This document shows, one piece after another, positions 31,374 to 40,571 of a stretch of DNA of 64,000 bases; positions within the stretch are counted from its first letter, which is position 1; the number at the start of each line of letters is the position of its first letter. Position numbers and translations under genes: made by a program. This DNA comes from Gallaecimonas sp. GXIMD4217 (lineage in GTDB: Bacteria > Pseudomonadota > Gammaproteobacteria > Enterobacterales > Gallaecimonadaceae): NCBI RefSeq assembly GCF_038087665.1, contig NZ_CP149925.1:957455-1021454 (forward strand). Direction: 5' to 3'. The notes beneath the pieces were generated by a model that saw only the letters and a program-made list of their open reading frames with translations, searched no databases and was not told the DNA's origin.

Positions 31374-32315
31374 TCAGTCCGGCGCCTTTGGCAAGTCCGG
31401 GGCCGGCGCTTCGGCAGTGGTCAGGCCATGGGCCCGGCGGATCAGTTCGGCCAGCATTCTGGTGCCGGGGCCGCAGCGGTCCGGCTCGGGGATCACCAGG
31501 TGCAGGGGGATGAGCCTGGCGCCGCCCTGCTGCAGCGCCAGGGTGACCAGCTCGCCGGCAGCCAGCTCCTCCCTGATCAGATCCAGCGGCAGCCAGGCGA
31601 AGCCCAGGCCGGCCTTGAGGGTCTGGATGGCGTCCATGAAATGGGTGAAGGTCCAGCGGTTCTCGGCCTTGAGCCAGCCCCTGTCCTCCCTGGGTTTCTG
31701 GCCGGTATCGCGGATCACCAGCTGCAGGGTCTGGGCCAGCTCGTCCTGGCTGATCGGCCGGCCCAGTTGGGCCAGGGGATGGTCCCGGTGCACCACCGGC
31801 TGCATTTCCACCGTCAGCAGCGACTCGCTGAGAAAGCCCCTGGGCACATGGCCGGTGATGGCGATGTCCACGGCCTTGGCGTTGATCAGCTCCTCGGAGC
31901 CGGTGATCACCGAGTCGATGATCTGCAGCCGGCTACCCCGGCTTTGGGGGTGGAAGGCCTTGAGCACCTCCAGCAGCTGGGCCTTGGGGTAGAGGATCTC
32001 GACACTGATGCGGATCTCCGGCTCCCAGCCACAGTCGATGTGCTGGGCCAGCTCCTCCAGGGTCTGGGCCACCTCGGTAAGCTGGCGGGAGCGGCGCAGC
32101 AGCACCTCGCCGGTATGGGTCAGATGGGCCTTGCGGCCCTTGACCTCCAGCAGCTGCACCCCGAGCTGGTGCTGCAGCTTGGCCACGGCGTGGTTGAGGG
32201 ACGACTGGCTCTTATTCAGCTTGGCGGCGGCCTGGGCATAGCCGCCATAGTCCACCACGGCCTGGAGCATGCGCCATTGTTCCAGGGTCGTTTTGGATCG
32301 GTAGAGCTCGGTCAT
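31374..32315 (-). CDS. LysR-family transcriptional regulator
   Basis: A 313-residue LysR-type regulator. The N-terminal winged helix-turn-helix spans about residues 10-68 (QAAAKLNKSQSSLNHAVAKL in the recognition region), followed by a linker helix and a periplasmic-binding-like effector domain (ISVEILYPKAQLLEVLKAFH onwards). RBS AAGGAG precedes the ATG. No divergent metabolic gene lies next to it. The 228-bp region upstream contains a candidate small RNA on the opposite strand. The effector and targets are unknown. Confidence 0.92.
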   Translation of the reverse strand: MTELYRSKTTLEQWRMLQAVVDYGGYAQAAAKLNKSQSSLNHAVAKLQHQLGVQLLEVKGRKAHLTHTGEVLLRRSRQLTEVAQTLEELAQHIDCGWEPEIRISVEILYPKAQLLEVLKAFHPQSRGSRLQIIDSVITGSEELINAKAVDIAITGHVPRGFLSESLLTVEMQPVVHRDHPLAQLGRPISQDELAQTLQLVIRDTGQKPREDRGWLKAENRWTFTHFMDAIQTLKAGLGFAWLPLDLIREELAAGELVTLALQQGGARLIPLHLVIPEPDRCGPGTRMLAELIRRAHGLTTAEAPAPDLPKAPD

Positions 32316-32389
32316 GACATCTCCTTGGTGCGTTTGACGAACGGCTGCTCAGCTGCGATGAAGGCCTTTAAAAACGGCGACGAAAACGT

Positions 32390-32417
32390 TTGCTTTTTTT
32401 CTTTGCTATGGCATAGT
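32390..32417 (+). promoter_or_regulatory. Candidate sigma-70 promoter for a + strand small RNA
   Basis: TTGCTT (32390-32395) and CATAGT (32412-32417), 16 bp apart, are modest matches to -35 and -10 boxes. They sit just before a structured stretch that ends in an intrinsic terminator, with no + strand gene downstream. Confidence 0.3.
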
Positions 32418-32420
32418 GTC

Positions 32421-32538
32421 ACCGCCTGCCGCAAGGCAGCCGGTGTTTCGAAAGGGACACCATTCCTCAAAAGCATGTTTGTTATCAATCATCCTGTGAA
32501 GCCAAACCCCCGTGCAGTTTTTGCATGGGGTTTTTTTT
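32421..32538 (+). ncRNA. Candidate intergenic small RNA
   Basis: No protein gene on this strand explains this stretch. It opens with a hairpin of ACCGCCTGCC against GGCAGCCGGT (32421-32430 and 32435-32444, one C-C mismatch) closed by a GCAA tetraloop, a GNRA type. It ends in a terminator hairpin with eight Ts (32504-32538). A second possible stem, GGTGT with ACACC (32442-32446 and 32457-32461), would compete with the first. A weak promoter lies upstream. Together this fits a transcript of about 115 nt. I could not match it to a known family; the opposite-strand LysR gene starts 105 bp away. Confidence 0.35.
32504..32538 (+). terminator. Intrinsic terminator with eight-T tract
   Basis: AAACCCCCGTGCA (32504-32516) pairs imperfectly with TGCATGGGGTTT (32522-32533) and runs into eight Ts (32531-32538). 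Strong on the + strand. In the reverse direction it could also stop the six-gene operon ending at 32544, with a weaker T tract. Confidence 0.7.
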
Positions 32539-32543
32539 GCCTG

Positions 32544-33584
32544 TCATTTGGCGACCAGGCCGTAGGGCAGTTTGGCGCGTCTGCCCAGGTCCGGCCCCTG
32601 GAAGCGCTGTTCGGGCCAGTTCAGCAGCGCCATGGCCAGCACGTTGCGGTGCTCGCCGCTGCTGAGTTCGAGCTTGCCGGATACCGACGGGATCAGCCCG
32701 GCCTCGGGGTGGATGCTGGCCTTGAGCCGCTGTTTCACTTCGCCTATCAGCGGATGGCCTTGCTGGCCGGTCAGCAGCAGGCACAGCGCCACTTCCGCCA
32801 TCACGTCTTCCGAGGTGCGCGCCAGGATGTCATTCCGGTGCGCCTCGAAGTAATCGAGGATCCACCTGTGGCGCTCGGCGGGGACCTGGCGCTGGTAGTA
32901 GCCGGAGTCGGCCAGGATGATGTGGGTCAGGCCGTAGATCTTGTTCTTGAACTGCTGCCTGGACAGCGCCTCGTCCCTGGCGTCCGGGTAGGCGCGTTGC
33001 ATGGCCAGATCGAAGTCGGCGCGCAGGTCGGCGACGCCCAATTGATACAGCCAGTACACGTAGTTGGCGGCCTGGGCGGCATAGGCGCGGATGAACCCGG
33101 GCTCCAGCAGCTTGGCCTGCAGCGCCTCATGGCCCTTGAGGTAGGCCAGCAGCCGCTCCTGGTGCCGGTGCTTCAGGCCCAGGTCGTCCACCTTGGCCAG
33201 CAGGTAGCTGAGGTACATGGCGTAACGGAGATCGCCCGTGTCCTTGAGCACCGCCCGGCGCTTCTTGCCCCTGGGGCCCTTGGAGATGTTGCCGATGAGC
33301 CGCTTGGACTCGGCCAGGCGGGCCTGGTCGTCGCCGAGCATGTCCACATAGTGGTTGAGGCGGCTGGCGGTGTCATAGGCGTCGTTGATGATGTCCACCA
33401 GGTAGCGCTTCTCGCCGCTGAGGCGGTACAGGCGCAGGGAATAGTGCTGGCGGGCCGCACCGGACAGCTCCAGGTAGCGGCTCTCGAAGGTGTGCTGCAG
33501 GGTGGCGGCGGCCTGGTGGTCGCTGATCGGGGCGGCGCCGAGCAGCAGCGGCAGGGCCGTGAGGGCAATGGCGAACAGGCGCAT
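32544..33584 (-). CDS. Exported protein, tandem paralogue 2, unknown function
   Basis: A 346-residue product with a signal peptide (MRLFAIALTALPLLLGA, cleavage near residue 18). It is mainly alpha-helical by composition. Motifs shared with the upstream neighbour are YSLRLYRLSGEKRYL, FKNKIYGLTHIILADSGYYQ, LTGQQGHPLIG and GEHRNVLAMALLNWPE. It may belong to a family of unknown function such as DUF3541, recalled from memory and not checked. No catalytic signature stands out, though conserved His, Tyr and Asp (GLTHI, SGYYQ) could be functional. RBS AAAGGA. It is last in the six-gene operon, 10 bp after its paralogue. Confidence 0.8.
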   Translation of the reverse strand: MRLFAIALTALPLLLGAAPISDHQAAATLQHTFESRYLELSGAARQHYSLRLYRLSGEKRYLVDIINDAYDTASRLNHYVDMLGDDQARLAESKRLIGNISKGPRGKKRRAVLKDTGDLRYAMYLSYLLAKVDDLGLKHRHQERLLAYLKGHEALQAKLLEPGFIRAYAAQAANYVYWLYQLGVADLRADFDLAMQRAYPDARDEALSRQQFKNKIYGLTHIILADSGYYQRQVPAERHRWILDYFEAHRNDILARTSEDVMAEVALCLLLTGQQGHPLIGEVKQRLKASIHPEAGLIPSVSGKLELSSGEHRNVLAMALLNWPEQRFQGPDLGRRAKLPYGLVAK

Positions 33585-33594
33585 GGCTTTTCCT

Positions 33595-34635
33595 TTATTT
33601 GGCGGAAACCGACCTGGGCAGGTCGTCCCTGATTTTCTTGTGGGCGGCCAGCCTCGGGCCCGGATGCAGTGTATCCGGCCAGTTCAGCAGCATCCAGGCC
33701 AGCACGTTGCGGTGCTCGCCGAGGGCCAGATCGGCGCTGCCCCTTTGTGACAGGATGAGCTGCTGCTCGGGATCCACCGCGGCCAGGATGGCGGCCCTGG
33801 TCTTGGCCACCACCGGGTGGCGTTCCTTGCCCAGCAGCAGGAAGACGATGCCCACCTCGGCGATGACGTCCGGCTTGGCCCTGGCCAGGATGGCGTCGAT
33901 GTTGTCCGCCAGATAGTCGGCTACCCAGCCGAACTCCTTGCTGGACACCGGCTGCTGGTAGTAGCGGGAGGCGGCGAACACCATGTGGGTGAGACCGTAG
34001 ATCTTGTTGTTGAGCTGCTGCTCGCTCAGCTTGCCGTCCCGATCGTCCGGGTAGGTGGCCCTGAAGGCGTCGATGAAGGCCTGGCGGTGGTCCTTGAGGC
34101 CCAGCTGTTTGAGCCACCAGGCATGGTTGGCGAGCTGGGCGGCCCAGGCGCGGATCATCTTGGGATCGGTGAGGGTCTTCTCGAAGTCGTAGCCCCTCAG
34201 CAGGTTGCGGAAATAGGGCTCGGCCGGGTGCTCGAAGCCCAGGGCGTCCAGGCGGCTCAGGTAGCGCAGCAGCTCGTCGGCATAGAAGAGGTATTCCTCC
34301 CGGCCCTGGATGGCGGCCTTGCGCAGCCGGCCACGCTGGGTCCTGGGCAGCGCCTTGACCAGCTGCTGGCTGTAGCCGCGTACATAGCCCGGGCGGATCA
34401 GGCCATGGCCTATGGCCTCCAGGCGGTCGGCCACCACATAGAGGTCGTAGAGGGCGGCGTTGAGGTAGCGCGGATCGCCGGTCATCCGGTAGAGGCGGAT
34501 GCCGTAATGGCCCTGGGTACGGGGCGGCAGCTGGAAGAGCTGGGCTTCCAGCTTCTCGCGGATGGCCTGGCCCTGTTCGGCCAGGGCGGGCTGCAGCAGG
34601 GCCAGCAGCAGGGCGGCCAGCAGCAATCTTCTCAT
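33595..34635 (-). CDS. Exported protein, tandem paralogue 1, unknown function
   Basis: A 346-residue product starting at ATG 34635 (MRRLLLAALLLALLQPALAE, a clear signal peptide), with RBS GGGAG. The frame extends to 34704 without support. It shares length and most motifs with the downstream gene: YGIRLYRMTGDPRYL, LNNKIYGLTHMVFAASRYYQ, LLGKERHPVV and GEHRNVLAWMLLNWPD. The ATG overlaps the stop of the M3-like peptidase gene (ATGA), so translation is coupled. The pair presumably arose by duplication and has diverged considerably in the middle region. Confidence 0.8.
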   Translation of the reverse strand: MRRLLLAALLLALLQPALAEQGQAIREKLEAQLFQLPPRTQGHYGIRLYRMTGDPRYLNAALYDLYVVADRLEAIGHGLIRPGYVRGYSQQLVKALPRTQRGRLRKAAIQGREEYLFYADELLRYLSRLDALGFEHPAEPYFRNLLRGYDFEKTLTDPKMIRAWAAQLANHAWWLKQLGLKDHRQAFIDAFRATYPDDRDGKLSEQQLNNKIYGLTHMVFAASRYYQQPVSSKEFGWVADYLADNIDAILARAKPDVIAEVGIVFLLLGKERHPVVAKTRAAILAAVDPEQQLILSQRGSADLALGEHRNVLAWMLLNWPDTLHPGPRLAAHKKIRDDLPRSVSAK

Positions 34636-36344
34636 GGTGTCTCTCCCAGGGCGCAGGCCAGCTGGTCCCGTCCGGGACGGCTGCCGCCGGCGCTCAGCAG
34701 GCAATGGCTGAAACCACGCAGGCTCAGGCTGTTGTTCGCCAGCCGCGCGCCAAGGCGCTCGGCCAGGTGGTCGGCATGGAGGTAGCTGACGTAGTTGGGG
34801 CCGTAGCTGGCCAGGTGGCGGAAGCTGTACTGGGGCGCCATGCCGTCCAGCAGGGGGCGGCGCAGGTAGGCCCGGTACAGGCGGCGGTTGATGGTATCCA
34901 TGGCGGACCGATCCGGCGCGCCTTCATGGTAGGCCAGGGCCAGGGCCGCCTTGAGGATGCGCTCATCCAGGGCGACGCCGTACTGGCGGGGATCAGGCTC
35001 TGGGGTGCGGCGCTGGCCGGTGATGCGGTGGTGAGCGGCCGGATCCCAGGCCAGGCGCTCCAGCACCTTGGCCGGCACTTCCACCAGCTCCGAGGGCAGG
35101 CGGATCCCGGCCAGGATCTGGTAGGGCTGGCTGGCCAGCAGGTTGTTGAGGGCGTGGCCGGACTCGTGGAGCAGGCTCTTGAGGTGTTTGACGCCCCAGC
35201 GCTTCCTCGGCAGGCTCAGCGCCAGCACCGAGGCCGGCGTCTGGACGCCGGTGACGCCCCGGCGCAGCTCGCGGTGGCGGTTATGGCCATACTTGCCGTC
35301 CCGCCGGTAGAGATCCAGGTACAGCTCGCCCAGCAGCCGCCCGTCCCGGAACACCTCGTAATGGAGCACGTCCGGGTGCCAGGCGGCCTTGGCCGTGGCC
35401 ACGAAGCGCAGCCCCAGCTCGTCGCTCAGGTGATCCAGCCAGCCGTCGATGACCCGCTCGGGCCGATAGCGAAAGCGGTGCTGGAAGGTGACCCTGGGCG
35501 GGGCCCAGAGCGGCGGCTGGCCGGCGGCCTGCCACTGGGTCTCGGCCCGTTCGCGGTTATCGGCGCTGAGCCTGTCCAGGAAGGCCCAGACCGCATCGGG
35601 CGAATTCAGCTGGCCGCCGGCCAGGCGCAATTCGGCGTAGTTGCTCTTTCCCTTGAGCTCGGCCATCTGCTGGCGCTGGGCCAGCAGCTGCGTCAGCACC
35701 GGGCCGTTTTCCTTTTCCAGCCGGGATTCCGAGGCCACGAACAGGCTCTGGCGGCAATGGTCGGAGGCGAGCCTGTGGTAAGTGGCGGTCGGCGCTGGCA
35801 GGGGGATGTGCCAGCCGTCCTGCCGGCGCCAGTTGTCCTTGAGGTTGCCGGCACAGGCCAGCGGCAGCACCGCCTTGGGCTCGGCCTTGTCTATGGTGTG
35901 GCGAAACTGCCGGCTGAGCCGGCGGGCCTCGGCCTTGGCCTGGCGGTAGGCGGGGCCGTCCGGTGTGCCCGTGCCGCCGGCCCAGAGGCTCAGGGCCCTT
36001 TTCTCCAGGCCCCGGGCGCCGGCCAGGCGCTGCCGGGCCTCGCGGCGGATGCGCGGGCGCACCGTATCGAAGGCCTGGCCCAGCCGCTGGATGCACTGGC
36101 GGGCGGCCCGGCGCTCGGCGGCATCGGGGGACAGATCGGCCAGCACATAGGCCTCATTGAGGGTATTGCGGGCCGGCAGCCGCCAGGCGTCAAGGCCCTT
36201 GAGCCAGGCCCTGGGCGCCTGGGGCAGCGCGGGAAATTCGGCCAGGGCGCTGGCGGCCGCCTCGCATTTGTCCTGGATGCCGGCCTCAGCCGGCCAGGGA
36301 TTCAGGCTCAGTGCCAGCAGCCATGCCAAAGACGTCCATCGCAT
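34632..36344 (-). CDS. Exported M3-like zinc metallopeptidase
   Basis: A 570-residue protein with signal peptide MRWTSLAWLLALSLNPWPA, putting it in the periplasm or outside. The zinc motif LLHESGHAL (HExxH near residues 390-394) is followed about 20 residues later by LPSELVEVPAKVLERLAW, the second M3 signature with the third zinc ligand Glu. GVALDERILKAALALAY and the Tyr-rich region ASYGPNYVSYLHADHLA match the substrate-binding helices of thimet-type oligopeptidases. It is shorter than cytoplasmic OpdA/PrlC enzymes. Its start lies 59 bp inside the upstream ATP-grasp gene, but a good RBS (AGGAAAGGG) and the signal peptide support it. Expected substrate: short peptides. Confidence 0.85.
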   Translation of the reverse strand: MRWTSLAWLLALSLNPWPAEAGIQDKCEAAASALAEFPALPQAPRAWLKGLDAWRLPARNTLNEAYVLADLSPDAAERRAARQCIQRLGQAFDTVRPRIRREARQRLAGARGLEKRALSLWAGGTGTPDGPAYRQAKAEARRLSRQFRHTIDKAEPKAVLPLACAGNLKDNWRRQDGWHIPLPAPTATYHRLASDHCRQSLFVASESRLEKENGPVLTQLLAQRQQMAELKGKSNYAELRLAGGQLNSPDAVWAFLDRLSADNRERAETQWQAAGQPPLWAPPRVTFQHRFRYRPERVIDGWLDHLSDELGLRFVATAKAAWHPDVLHYEVFRDGRLLGELYLDLYRRDGKYGHNRHRELRRGVTGVQTPASVLALSLPRKRWGVKHLKSLLHESGHALNNLLASQPYQILAGIRLPSELVEVPAKVLERLAWDPAAHHRITGQRRTPEPDPRQYGVALDERILKAALALAYHEGAPDRSAMDTINRRLYRAYLRRPLLDGMAPQYSFRHLASYGPNYVSYLHADHLAERLGARLANNSLSLRGFSHCLLSAGGSRPGRDQLACALGETP

Positions 36345-37260
36345 GGGACACCCTTTCCTCCGCGCTGTCGTGGCGCTTCTTCAACTTCTCGATATGGCGC
36401 AGCCTGGGCAGCAGGCCGCAGCCGTTGGCCACCTGGATGGACAGGCCGGGGCGGGCGTTGAGCTCCAGCAGCAGCGGCCCCTTCTGCTTGTCCAGCACCA
36501 GATCGGTGCCGATATAACCCAGGCCGGTCATTTCAAAGCAGCGGGAGGCCAGCACCAGCATCTCTTGCCAATGGGGGATCTCGATGTCCTTGAGCTGCTT
36601 GCCGGTGTCCGGGTGGTGGCTGATGGGGGTGGAGAACTGCACCGCGTTCAGGCAACGGCCGGTGGCGATGTCCAGGCCCACGCCCACGGCGCCCTGGTGC
36701 AGGTTGGCCTTGCCGTCGGACTCGTGGGTGGCGCAGCGCAGCATGGCCATCACAGGGTAGCCCTGGAAGATGATGATGCGGATGTCCGGCACCCCCTGGT
36801 GGGAGTAGCCCTCGAAGCGGTCGTCGAACTCGATGAGCTCTTCCATGATCGCCACGTCCGGCTTGCCGCCCAGGGAATAGAGGCCGGCCAGGATGTTGGA
36901 CAGGTGCCGCTTGATGTCCTCGAGGGTGATGACATCACCGGAGGCCTTGATGAAGTCGTCGCCGCTGCGGCCGGTGATCACCAGTATGCCCTTGCCGCCG
37001 GAGCCCTTGGCGGGCTTGATGGCGAAGCCATGGAAGGACTGCACCAGATCCAGCACGTGCTCTATCTCGTGCTGCTGCTGCACCATGCCCAGCAGCTTGG
37101 GCACGGTCAGCTGGTACTTCTGGCAGATCAGCTTGGTCCTGAGCTTGTTGTCCACCAGCGGGTAGAGGCTGCGGTCGTTGTAGCGGCCGATATAGGCCAC
37201 GTTGCGCCTGTTCATGCCGAGGATGCCGGCCCGGCTGAGGCTAAAGGGGCTGGCCCACAT
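36286..37260 (-). CDS. RimK-like ATP-grasp alpha-L-glutamate ligase-related protein
   Basis: A 324-residue ATP-grasp protein of the RimK-related group that forms amide or peptide bonds with amino acids such as glutamate. The nucleotide-binding lysine region is FAIKPAKGSGGKGILVI. Later motifs are MEELIEFDD and DIRIIIFQGYPVMAMLRCA, and LLLELNARPGLSIQVANG gives the metal-binding Glu and Asn. It is cytoplasmic, with no signal. The ATG follows the stop of the 7TM gene with no gap, and the 3' end overlaps the M3-like peptidase by 59 bp. This ligase, a 7TM inactive transglutaminase and a retropepsin form a known conserved trio; its substrate is not known to me. Confidence 0.9.
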   Translation of the reverse strand: MWASPFSLSRAGILGMNRRNVAYIGRYNDRSLYPLVDNKLRTKLICQKYQLTVPKLLGMVQQQHEIEHVLDLVQSFHGFAIKPAKGSGGKGILVITGRSGDDFIKASGDVITLEDIKRHLSNILAGLYSLGGKPDVAIMEELIEFDDRFEGYSHQGVPDIRIIIFQGYPVMAMLRCATHESDGKANLHQGAVGVGLDIATGRCLNAVQFSTPISHHPDTGKQLKDIEIPHWQEMLVLASRCFEMTGLGYIGTDLVLDKQKGPLLLELNARPGLSIQVANGCGLLPRLRHIEKLKKRHDSAEERVSHAMDVFGMAAGTEPESLAG

Positions 37261-38772
37261 CTAGTCGTTCTCCACCATGGCCCTGAAGCGCTTGAGCTCG
37301 CTGAGCTTGTAGCCGGTGTATTGGCCAATGAGCAGGATGAAGGCCAGCAGCACCAGGTGCAGCTCCGGGAAGTTGAAGGTCAGGTGGCTCATCAGCTTGG
37401 ACTGCATGGCCAGGTAGGCCAGCACCGCCACCAGCAGCGAGCCGGAGCCCTGGATCAGCACCTCCCGGGGGCCGTCTTCCTCCCAGAGGATGGACATCCG
37501 CTCTATGGTCCAGGCCATGATGATCATCGGGAAGAAGGTGATGGTCATGCCGGTGTTGAAGCCCAGCTGGTAGCCCACCAGGCTCATGATGGCGATGATG
37601 AACACCACCAGGATCACCAGGGTGGCGATGCGCGCCACCAGCAGCAGGTTGAGCCGCGACAGGTAGCCCCTGAGCAGCAGCCCGAAGGCCACCACGGCGA
37701 TGAAGCTGACCATGCCCGGCACCAGGGAGGTCTGCAGGAAGGCCACGGCGATCAGCACCGGCATGAAGGTACCTGAGGTCTTGATGCCGACCACGATGCG
37801 CATCAGCACCACCACGAAGGCGCCCAGGGGCAGCAGCAGCAGCATCTTGAACATGGACTGCTCTTCGATGGGCAGGCGGTAGAGGCTGAACGGGCTGAAG
37901 CCGCTCTCCTCGGCCTGGGCCCGGGCCAGCTGCAGGGCCGGCACCGTCTGCTTGATGATGGCGAAGGAAACGCTGGAGCCGGAGCCGCCGGTCACGTCCA
38001 GCAGCGATTCGCCGCCACGGTGCCAGAGCAGCAGGTTTTCCGGCAGGCCCTGCTGGCCGCTCTTGGGATCGAACACCAGCCAGCGCTGGTCGGCGTAGAT
38101 CTCCACCATGGGGGTCAGGCTCTGGCGACGGCGGGCGTCCTCCAGGTACAGGCCCAGGGACACCCGGGCCGGAATGCCGGCCTGGTTCACCAGCTTGTTG
38201 AGCAGCTCCGCCGGGCTGTGGTTGGCCAGCAGCAGGGCGGCGTTCTGGCCTGGCTCCGGCTGGTTGATCAGCTTCATCAGCTCCCGGGCCAGGGACTGGG
38301 GGCTGCTGGAGCGGGTCGAGGCCTGGCTGAGCAGCTGGGCGGCGGCGGTGGCCTGGGGCTCGTCCCAGTCCACCAGGGCCGGCTCGGGCGCCTCGGCTTC
38401 CGGGGCGTCCTCGATGTCGGGGTCGGCGATGAACTGGGCCTTGTAGTAGAGGGTCTGGGGGCCCAGGGCGCGGCGGATGGACCATTCACCACGGCGGTTG
38501 CCGTCGTGCTCGATCACCGAAAAGCCGTAGCCGGGGCTGGCGGCCTGCTCGGTGAACAGGCGAAAGCCCGGCGGGTTGTCGGGCAGATCCAGGCTGGCCA
38601 GCACCGCCCTGTCGCGGGCGTTGAAATCGACCCTGGCTTCCACCAGCCATACCGGCCGTTCCTCGCCCGGGGTGAAGGGCAGCTCCATCTGGCTGTGGCG
38701 CAGCCAGGCCAGGCTGAGGCCGCCGACGATCAGCAGCAGGACAATGACGTAGAAGGAGGCTCTGTTGATCAT
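37261..38772 (-). CDS. Inactive-transglutaminase/7TM membrane protein
   Basis: A 503-residue membrane protein: one N-terminal helix (about 7-25), a periplasmic region of about 275 residues of the inactive transglutaminase type (LTPMVEIYADQRWLVFDPKS), and a C-terminal block of about seven helices (residues 305-490, for example MLLLLPLGAFVVVLMRIVVG). In this family the transglutaminase-like domain lacks catalytic residues and probably binds peptide. The start overlaps the retropepsin stop (ATGA). With its neighbours it should form an envelope complex linking periplasmic peptide sensing to the cytoplasmic ligase; this is inferred from family context. Confidence 0.9.
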   Translation of the reverse strand: MINRASFYVIVLLLIVGGLSLAWLRHSQMELPFTPGEERPVWLVEARVDFNARDRAVLASLDLPDNPPGFRLFTEQAASPGYGFSVIEHDGNRRGEWSIRRALGPQTLYYKAQFIADPDIEDAPEAEAPEPALVDWDEPQATAAAQLLSQASTRSSSPQSLARELMKLINQPEPGQNAALLLANHSPAELLNKLVNQAGIPARVSLGLYLEDARRRQSLTPMVEIYADQRWLVFDPKSGQQGLPENLLLWHRGGESLLDVTGGSGSSVSFAIIKQTVPALQLARAQAEESGFSPFSLYRLPIEEQSMFKMLLLLPLGAFVVVLMRIVVGIKTSGTFMPVLIAVAFLQTSLVPGMVSFIAVVAFGLLLRGYLSRLNLLLVARIATLVILVVFIIAIMSLVGYQLGFNTGMTITFFPMIIMAWTIERMSILWEEDGPREVLIQGSGSLLVAVLAYLAMQSKLMSHLTFNFPELHLVLLAFILLIGQYTGYKLSELKRFRAMVEND

Positions 38773-39527
38773 TCCTTACCCTTGGCCGGCAGCTTGAGAC
38801 TGAATTCCCTGCTCACGTCCACCACCATCAGATCCTTGAGGATGTTGCGGCCGATCAGCAGGGGATACTCCAGGTGGGAGCGGTCGGTGAGGGTGAACTC
38901 CGCCTTCTGGGACACGGGCCCCAGCTGGTAGCGCAGCTCGACTATGGGGCGACGCTCCCCTTCCTCGGTATTGGACTGGAGGATACGCACCCAGCGCACC
39001 ACCTTCTTCTCGATGGGGGTGATGTCGGTGCCGTCGGGCAGCACCACGTGGAAACGGACCCAGTCGTCGCCGTCGCGCTCGAAGGTCTCGATATCGCGGG
39101 CATCCAGGGAGGCATAGGTGGCGCCGGTGTCGATGCGGGCTTCCAGCACGAAGTCCGGCGGCGACAGCCGCACCCGCTCCACGGCGCCCACCACCACCTT
39201 GTCGTCCTTGACCGGCATGGCCTTGACTTCGGGGCACTTGGGCTGGATGGCGGGAGGGCAGACCACCGCCTTCTTGGCGGTTTTCTCCAGGTTGGCCTTC
39301 AATTCGCTGAGGGTGGCCAGATGTTCTTCCTGGGTCTTCATGGCGGCCAGCAGGTTGTCTTCCCGCTGGGCCTGGTAGGCAGTCAGCTGCTGCTGGGTCT
39401 GTTGGTGCTGGCTCTGGACCTGTTCCAATTGGCCCTGGAGCTGCTGCATGTCGGCTTCCTTCAGCCAGACGCCCGGGGCACAACCCTGGAGCAACAGCAG
39501 CCCGCTGGCCAGTAGCGCTTTGCGCAT
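38769..39527 (-). CDS. Lipoprotein retropepsin-like protease (ATP-dependent zinc protease family)
   Basis: A 252-residue lipoprotein with lipobox LLLLQGC and lipidated Cys16. A Gln-rich coiled coil runs over about residues 25-85. A C-terminal single-lobe aspartic protease domain has the catalytic DTGA at residues 133-136 (EARIDTGATYASLD), followed by RPIVELRYQLGP and LIGRNILKDLMVVD. The Pfam name of this family mentions zinc and ATP, but the fold is retropepsin-like. It is the first gene of the operon, diverging from glsA over 126 bp. The RBS (AGAGGA) is about ten bases from the ATG. It would face the periplasm from a membrane anchor. Confidence 0.9.
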   Translation of the reverse strand: MRKALLASGLLLLQGCAPGVWLKEADMQQLQGQLEQVQSQHQQTQQQLTAYQAQREDNLLAAMKTQEEHLATLSELKANLEKTAKKAVVCPPAIQPKCPEVKAMPVKDDKVVVGAVERVRLSPPDFVLEARIDTGATYASLDARDIETFERDGDDWVRFHVVLPDGTDITPIEKKVVRWVRILQSNTEEGERRPIVELRYQLGPVSQKAEFTLTDRSHLEYPLLIGRNILKDLMVVDVSREFSLKLPAKGKE

Positions 39528-39653
39528 GAGTTCGACATCCTCTTGAGACTTCGGCAGTTATCCAAGCATAACGCGTTTCAACTAAAGCTGAACTGGTTGC
39601 TTTTGACCACCATTTATCGACAATGACGGCCCCCCGTACACTAGGTTTTCGTT

Positions 39654-40571
39654 ATGGCCGATTACCAGAGCATTCTTGACCGCATCGCCGACCAGGCCGC
39701 CGGCCATTTTGGCCAGGGCGCCGTGGCCGACTATATCCCGGCACTGGCACAGGTTCCGGGGGACCAGTTCGGTATCGCCTTATATACGACGGATGGCGAA
39801 CTTTTTAAAGCGGGACAGGCAGATAGGCGTTTTTCCATCCAGTCCATCTCCAAGGTGTTCTCCCTGGCCATGGCCCTGACCCGCTACGGCGACAACCTCT
39901 GGCTGCGGGTCGGCAAGGAGCCGTCCGGCACCGCCTTCAATTCCCTGGTGCAGCTGGAGTACGAGAAGGGGGTACCCCGCAACCCCTTCATCAACGCCGG
40001 TGCCCTGGTGGTGGCCGACGCCCTGGTGTCGCGGCTGTCGGCGCCCATCCACGCCATGCTGGAAACGGTGCGCAAGCGCGCCGGCGAGCCCAGCATCGTC
40101 ATCGACAAGACGGTGGCCGACTCCGAATACGAACATCGCTTTCGCAACGCCGCCATGGCCAACCTGATGAAGAGCTTCGGCAACTTCGACAACGAGGTGG
40201 AGCAGGTACTCAGGGCCTATTTCAACTACTGCGCCCTGTCCATGAGCGCCGTGGAGCTGGCCAGGGCCTTCAGCTTCCTGGCCACCGGCGGCCAGTGCCT
40301 GCAAAGCGGCGAGCAGTGGCTGTCGAAGCGCATGACCCAGCAGCTCAACGCCCTGCTGTTCACCTCCGGCCTCTATGACGCCGCCGGCGACTTTGCCTTC
40401 CGGGTTGGCATGCCCGGCAAGTCCGGGGTGGGCGGCGGTATCGTCGCCGTGGTGCCGGGCCGCTTCACCGCCTGCGTCTGGTCCCCCAGGCTCAATGCCT
40501 ACGGCAACTCGGCGGCCGGGATCTGGGCCCTGGAGCAGCTCTCCGAGGCCCTGGATACCACCATGTTCTGA
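39654..40571 (+). CDS. glsA: Glutaminase
   Basis: The 305-residue product is a glutaminase of the serine-dependent beta-lactamase-like fold, hydrolysing glutamine to glutamate and ammonia in the cytoplasm. The catalytic SxxK is in [16 protein letters not shown] (about residues 61-76). Other conserved parts are [46 protein letters not shown] and [15 protein letters not shown]. It is a stand-alone form without STAS or ankyrin domains. It diverges from the retropepsin/7TM/ATP-grasp operon. Confidence 0.96.

Follow-up and report, generated by a model that had tools for sequence, protein, structure and literature searches.

An rlo operon continued by an exported M3-like peptidase and two DUF3541 proteins in Gallaecimonas sp. 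GXIMD4217

The closest described relative of the locus analysed here is the rlo operon of Pseudomonas aeruginosa, for which we draw on the parts of the original report available to us (Lormand et al. 2025, PMC12239564). In vitro, P. aeruginosa RloA cleaved reporters with 8 or 10 glutamate residues and left those with 6 or fewer uncut, and a strain without all three RloA proteases was blocked in growth under hypo-osmotic stress, with deletion of rloB or rloC in this triple-protease mutant fully restoring hypo-osmotic growth and partly restoring the biofilm, antibiotic and shape defects. The published phenotypes include cell shape and sensitivity to cell-wall antibiotics, the physiological substrate is treated as an open question in the discussion of that paper, and a word search of its main text returned neither 'oligopeptidase' nor 'lipoprotein'. 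Our literature search gave no second paper on the rlo operon. Here we describe a 64,000-nucleotide stretch (the window) of the 3.35 Mb genome of Gallaecimonas sp. GXIMD4217, in which rloA, rloB and rloC are followed by genes for an exported M3-like metallopeptidase (M3L) and two exported paralogues of the DUF3541 family (D1 and D2). The core rlo operon is known, and M3L-D1-D2 is a real extension of it.

Six minus-strand open reading frames (ORFs), verified from their coordinates, occupy positions 32544-39527 in the order rloA-rloB-rloC-M3L-D1-D2:

38769-39527, minus strand: rloA, 252 amino acids, retropepsin-like aspartic peptidase with a lipobox-like LLQGC and DTGA (PF05618, E 1.8e-37)
37261-38772, minus strand: rloB, 503 amino acids, inactive-transglutaminase/7TM protein (PF14400 and PF14402)
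36286-37260, minus strand: rloC, 324 amino acids, cytoplasmic ATP-grasp amino-acid ligase-like protein (PF14397, E 1e-98; TIGR02291/ATPgrasp_ST)
34632-36344, minus strand: M3L, 570 amino acids, exported M3 metallopeptidase with HESGH at residues 393-397 (PF01432, E 1.2e-39)
33595-34635, minus strand: D1, 346 amino acids from its ATG, exported DUF3541 protein (PF12060, E 1.1e-124)
32544-33584, minus strand: D2, 346 amino acids, exported DUF3541 protein of a second subfamily (PF12060, E 6.1e-88)

The rloA and rloB genes share an ATGA overlap (38769-38772), the TAG of rloB abuts the ATG of rloC at 37260/37261, the rloC and M3L reading frames overlap by 59 bases (36286-36344), M3L and D1 meet in another ATGA (34632-34635), and D1 and D2 are spaced by 10 bases (33585-33594). 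For D1 the ORF list also holds an upstream TTG, and the length given is counted from the ATG. Inspection of the N-termini by eye indicated export signals in RloA, M3L, D1 and D2. The initial annotation of this DNA had placed the genes and all their junctions exactly as we find them, and its family calls (retropepsin, 7TM/inactive transglutaminase, ATP-grasp, M3-like peptidase and twin paralogues) were upheld by Pfam and NCBIfam. Because the same order recurs in other genera, the six-gene arrangement is more than chance would give.

The first three genes, adjacent and co-directional, are the rlo operon, and their RloA combines an export signal (by eye) with a DTG active site. RloC scored 461.9 bits with TIGR02291 against a cut-off of 314.2 (E 8.6e-139), and 17.6 of 331 bits with the RimK S6-ligase model NF007764. 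The curated NCBIfam cut-offs for RloA1-3 and RloB were not reached, the best scores being 109.8 of 210 bits for RloA3 and 326.9 of 900 bits for RloB (NF052267, E 2.2e-97); such scores would weaken naming at the orthologue level and not the assignment to Pfam families, as the models are narrow and distant orthologues are expected to miss them. RloA of the window has a coiled-coil-like stalk at its N-terminus and aligns to PDB entries 9g58 and 9g59. Among 99 RloA-like ORFs, which include some from one genome twice, D[ST]GA was present in all 99 and a broad lipobox pattern in 90. Tandem retropepsin genes lie ahead of rloB in two genomes of genus g2 (L158 3308-5228 and L166 6598-8596). The trio had been recognised correctly in the initial annotation, but its description there as a proposed system is outdated, the operon having been characterised in P. 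aeruginosa in 2025. The same annotation suggested a ligase-made short peptide signal or modification that passes through or is sensed by RloB and undergoes maturation by RloA and M3L, D1 and D2 being its carrier or target. We consider this quite improbable: the published in vitro substrate of RloA is polyglutamate, and relief of the harm of RloA loss by removal of RloB or RloC points to product removal rather than signal maturation (PMC12239564, in the parts available).

M3L exceeds the PF01432 gathering score (137.4 bits against 27), and its profile matches the sequences of solved structures of neurolysin, thimet oligopeptidase, OpdA and Dcp over most of its length. The HExxH motif and downstream Glu of family M3 are present as HESGH and E422 in the window and in 10/10 intact orthologues, in all of which H393, E394, H397, E422, H510, Y518 and Y521 are invariant. 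Ahead of the zinc site there is an Arg-rich NRHR motif (355-358), likewise invariant in all ten together with the RG that follows it, at a place that reads AACFGLQPG in neurolysin and thimet oligopeptidase. In angiotensin-converting enzyme (ACE) and Dcp the strand that contacts the substrate backbone is ~28 residues ahead of the zinc motif, which would place it next to the NRHR site. M3L of the window has four conserved Cys and an isoelectric point (pI) of 10.0, and the pI of all ten intact proteins is 9.0-10.0, against 5.1-5.7 in ten further M3 peptidases that four of these genomes encode, proteins that share neither the motif nor the unusual charge. The basic charge would fit an acidic substrate, for example the short Glu chains left by RloA, and that oligoglutamate is the substrate of M3L is to us an evenly balanced proposition.

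We assessed the linkage of these families in two samples. The first was a set of 80 named DUF3541 loci. These ranked highest among 265 in likeness to D1 of the window, come mostly from Shewanella and each reach at most 10 kb to either side; three of them duplicate genomes of the second sample (L104 is G844, L101 is G373 and L121 is G053). RloA, RloB, RloC, M3L and DUF3541 were found together in 60 of the 80 loci (58 Shewanella, one Paraferrimonas and one Thalassotalea), two of the 60 having a broken frame in RloB or M3L. DUF3541 was alone within the stretch in 17 loci, all from Vibrio, Photobacterium or Psychromonas, and the other three held two DUF3541 genes with no rlo genes in the stretch. 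The five-family linkage was also present in 3/5 genomes of the window's genus and 6/7 of genus g326. Gaps measured between longest ORFs were at most 30 bases in at least 97% of each junction type, a generous measure, as true starts may lie later and pairs 400 or more bases apart were left out.

The second sample comprised 394 genomes of the order, with RloB in 198 and DUF3541 in 62. RloB was present in 62/62 of the genomes with DUF3541 versus 136/332 of the others, an overlap with a genus-level chance of 1.9e-4 if genera are independent. Likewise, RloB was present in each further set of DUF3541 genomes, at 3/3 (the DUF3541 match of G104 being partial), 8/8 reached via loci and 7/7 of genus g326, all of these sets and the order sample overlapping in part. 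A search blind to linkage gave strong M3L matches (E < 1e-65) in 4/394 genomes, all four within an rlo operon; it scored at most three candidates per genome, and the RloB search at most six, so a few misses are possible. HExxH-bearing M3L was also found in 6/7 genomes of genus g326, and all ten genomes with intact M3L carry D2 as well. Sixteen other RloB neighbourhoods, selected by us from the same order and reaching past rloC, held rloABC with no M3L or DUF3541 gene beside it, and a second retropepsin gene in two; they are what is left of 20 selected regions without a placeholder, L169 (whose M3L is dead) and two regions truncated by contig ends. The genes upstream in most of these neighbourhoods look, by eye, like what are presumably cmoA or cmoB.

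Two further observations concern the distribution of DUF3541. Shewanella-type genomes of the order sample carry a single DUF3541 gene, except one with a second, Vibrio-type copy; in G484, of the Shewanella family f6, a second, Vibrio-type gene (L209 8391-9581) lies on another contig. A metagenome-assembled genome labelled Candidatus Anammoxibacter has two DUF3541 genes (L119 8381-11020) and RloB, and may contain mis-binned gammaproteobacterial DNA.

All six genes are present in 3/5 genomes of the window's genus, and the other two are without RloB, DUF3541 or a match to M3L of the zinc-intact type. In one relative, G004, RloB, intact M3L and DUF3541 are missing genome-wide, and glutaminase and LysR genes still flank a scar of the operon (L222 7986-11445). 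This scar consists of the protease part of rloA, with no export signal readable in frame, and a tail resembling the end of D2 (by eye); rloC was absent from the 17 kb around it, the rest of the genome not having been searched for this gene. The scar and the absence of RloB, M3L and DUF3541 indicate that the added genes were lost together with rloB. Synteny, co-occurrence and this one block-deleted relative thus support the initial proposal that M3L and the twins form one system with the trio, and we regard it as very probable that the extension and rlo are functionally linked.

In the Shewanella lineage M3L takes a zinc-dead form. Among 62 M3-like ORFs, HExxH was present only in L104 and in the unlinked peptidase of L119. 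Homology of the dead form to family M3 is still evident, with 13/17 proteins matching PF01432 at E ≤ 0.1 (best 4e-8), an hhalign probability of 99.9 over 550 columns, and four Cys positions common to intact and dead proteins. We compared 57 loci, leaving out L093 and L130 (broken frames), L104 (intact M3L) and L119, L129 and L131 (no operon). Mean pairwise identity was 0.37 for dead M3L versus 0.81 for RloC, and median dN/dS over 39 close pairs, which are not independent and of which D1 yielded 36, was 0.17 (maximum 0.38) versus 0.013. Dead M3L is therefore a maintained pseudopeptidase under purifying selection, and neutral decay of the Shewanella protein is ruled out by the dN/dS of 0.17. These values also bear on a passenger explanation, in which chance or frame overlap has kept M3L and the twins next to the trio and they play no part in the rlo pathway. 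Fast divergence of Shewanella M3L and the absence of DUF3541 from most RloB genomes would fit such passengers, but the low dN/dS, a gene order conserved across genera and the tracking of RloB by DUF3541 even where the two are not adjacent make them highly improbable.

On a tree of 14 dead M3L, 9/10 intact M3L and 6/10 control M3 proteins, four rows of which are long, the 14 dead proteins formed one group (support 98/96), and the intact proteins were not resolved as one (18% of bootstrap trees). As far as these data show, loss of the zinc site appears to have been a single event. D2 is absent from every locus with dead M3L, and in G404 and the g28 genome of L169 dead M3L occurs without any DUF3541 gene. 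At L054 6998-8893, G046 encodes a lone degenerate M3-like protein whose start resembles an export signal and whose HExxH position is altered; the 16 kb around it hold no rlo gene. In Shewanella vesiculosa, according to the available part of a vesicle screen (PMC12096838), an inactive-transglutaminase mutant overproduces vesicles, and the same screen gave a dipeptidyl carboxypeptidase gene, which is not necessarily M3L.

D1 and D2 both pass the PF12060 gathering score of 28.2, with 416 and 295.2 bits, respectively, and form separate clades, that of D2 (support 99/95) spanning the window's genus, Thalassotalea/G361 and Zooshikella. The pair goes back to an old duplication; a recent local duplication is excluded, as D2 proteins of separate genera share one clade. 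In G361 the two are fused into one protein. D2 is linked to rlo in 11/13 genomes, or 11/15 with the inclusion of two single-copy f34 proteins that group on the D2 side of the tree, the D2 labels of six g326 genomes being best BLAST hits rather than placements on the tree. The structure predicted for D1 is an (alpha/alpha) toroid that carries conserved charged residues, with most helix-borne invariant residues on six helices. Polysaccharide lyase, GH88 and GH105 proteins are among its closest structural matches, and no toroid family stands out among the matches listed. Because both twins keep the same invariant charged residues, which we read as a pocket, a role as peptidase substrates is disfavoured, and (alpha/alpha) toroids that bind a ligand or act as enzymes are the likelier reading.

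Profile searches gave no firm Pfam link of DUF3541 to other families. The curated cut-offs of GH88, GH105 and GH127 were not reached, GH127 alone appearing, below its cut-off, at E 0.14 for D1; it is the weak Pfam match most shared in the family, with 10/52 members and a best E of 0.015. D2 alone reached DUF6895, at E 1.2e-4 and just under the cut-off. No sequence relatives were found in the PDB at E up to 10, and our literature search found no paper mentioning DUF3541 or PF12060. Where DUF3541 is solitary, comparison by eye of two Vibrio-type and three f34 loci showed no common pattern of flanking genes, although two f34 loci of the same genus share neighbours.

These toroid and GH127 matches would suit an explanation in which the genes are simply co-regulated for envelope stress, M3L being a general periplasmic oligopeptidase and D1 and D2 toroids that act on glycan or peptidoglycan, all required in the hypo-osmotic or cell-wall stress that also calls for rloABC, with no substrate in common. 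The published rlo phenotypes in cell shape and cell-wall antibiotic sensitivity (PMC12239564, in the parts available) agree with it, as do the many genomes in which DUF3541 does not neighbour RloB. We nevertheless find this explanation rather doubtful, given that every DUF3541 genome checked has RloB, that all four intact M3L genes from the linkage-blind search lie in the operon, and that M3L is unlike the ten other M3 peptidases in both charge and motif.

We instead propose an rlo operon extended by a periplasmic arm. In the cytoplasm RloC would add or polymerise glutamate, as its ATP-grasp family and the published RloA substrate suggest, and the membrane protein RloB would export, present or control the product. 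The lipoprotein RloA would act in the periplasm and cut glutamate chains at least 8 residues long, an activity known in vitro and from the P. aeruginosa enzyme only, and M3L, as a basic oligopeptidase, may shorten residual oligoglutamate or other acidic peptides beyond the reach of RloA. D1 and D2, as a heteromeric toroid, could bind this acidic product or modify it, which is the weakest step and one in which we have less confidence than in oligoglutamate as the substrate of M3L. In the Shewanella lineage, with M3L catalysis lost and D2 absent, the pseudopeptidase and single DUF3541 protein probably have a binding or scaffold role. We give this explanation as a whole an even chance. In a bolder version the operon would encode all of a periplasmic system that handles an acidic amino-acid polymer: the endopeptidase RloA, the charge-adapted M3L and a heteromeric D1-D2 toroid would pass the product on, and in the lineage lacking D2 the M3 fold would hold or gate oligoglutamate for DUF3541. 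This version is speculative and in our view unlikely. The three extra exported proteins nonetheless suggest a longer periplasmic pathway than described so far.

Several observations weigh against an added periplasmic arm. DUF3541 neighbours RloB in 26 of the 62 order genomes that have it, and in the other 36 (families f21, which is Vibrio-like, f12 and f13) RloB lies on another contig or more than 100 kb away. Furthermore, 136 of the 198 RloB genomes lack DUF3541, and the added arm is therefore dispensable for the core system. In G822 the order is rloABC-D1-D2, with no M3L gene between rloC and D1 (the rest of the genome was not searched for M3L). Zinc-intact M3L sits inside the operon in 10/10 genomes where it was found, six of which (g326) were reached via the DUF3541 neighbourhood, so that their linkage is not independent and only the other four are unbiased. 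The initial annotation had raised the possibility that the last three genes occur mostly apart from the trio, and this holds for DUF3541 overall and not for zinc-intact M3L or D2. HExxH is lost from M3L in 59 of the 60 named operon loci (58 Shewanella and Paraferrimonas), and the dead proteins have a median pI of 7.3 (range 5.3-9.5, n=57), some being basic too. The parallel between zinc loss and absence of D2 is a hint from one event, an effective sample of one. D1 and D2 proteins, with pI values of 5.5-9.6, are not consistently basic like M3L, and the activities and substrates assigned to all six proteins here come from sequence comparison and prediction.

Two features lie at the ends of the operon:

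32508-32530, no strand assigned: hairpin of 10 pairs just beyond the end of D2, with a T run on the plus-strand side
39528-39653, no strand assigned: intergenic region of 126 bases between the divergent rloA and glutaminase genes, presumably holding the promoter, with no sigma-70-like match

A scan of both strands of 32200-40000 gave no sigma-70-like promoter, with 0.8 expected by chance. This agrees with a single transcription unit, but it is a weak test, as none was detected before rloA either. Terminator-like sites numbered three, against 4.2 expected by chance, and the hairpin may mark the operon end but is no clear terminator for the minus strand; by eye, G004 has a hairpin like it after its D2 remnant. 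The glutaminase gene (39654-40571), divergent from rloA, is likewise placed in G002 and G003 and adjoins the G004 scar, and glutaminase makes glutamate; the gene was not found in the 60 other operon loci, and G001 had no match. After the operon lies a gene for a LysR-type regulator (31374-32315), and genes that look alike by eye follow the DUF3541-less rlo operons with dead M3L in G404 (L203) and g28 (L169).

In P. aeruginosa, relatives of the trio govern the response to osmotic and cell-wall stress (PMC12239564, in the parts available), and the extra exported genes, seen only in rloB genomes, point to what leaves the cytoplasm. The basic M3 peptidase, seen only in the operon, is a candidate for the step after RloA that can be assayed directly on oligoglutamate, and the maintained pseudopeptidase in the same slot offers a natural control for catalytic versus structural roles. 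The first three genes match an ATP-grasp/inactive transglutaminase/retropepsin neighbourhood that Iyer et al. reportedly predicted in 2009, perhaps with further neighbours listed.

Compared with known systems, the locus shares with the P. aeruginosa operon (PMC12239564, in the parts available) the three families, their order, an exported DTG retropepsin, an inactive-transglutaminase/7TM protein and a cytoplasmic ATP-grasp protein, and differs from it in exported M3L, D1 and D2 and in the lipobox-like signal and coiled-coil-like stalk of RloA. With RimK-RimB polyglutamylation of S6 it shares the pairing of an ATP-grasp ligase with a retropepsin that acts on polyglutamate, but RimB and RimK are cytoplasmic and there is no RloB (PMC11957791 and PMC12239564, as far as available), whereas the peptidases of the window are exported; rather than a cytoplasmic retropepsin beside RimK, we find a retropepsin with an export signal (by eye) beside a TIGR02291 ligase. 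M3L resembles neurolysin, thimet oligopeptidase, OpdA and Dcp in HExxH plus Glu, in the region of the catalytic His and Tyr and in profile match, and is unlike them in being exported, shorter and basic, with four conserved Cys and NRHR, and in having one clade with the catalytic site lost. D1, finally, has ~10% identity to (alpha/alpha) toroids such as GH88/GH105, LanC-like proteins and terpene cyclases, and a shared fold would be no proof of a shared function.

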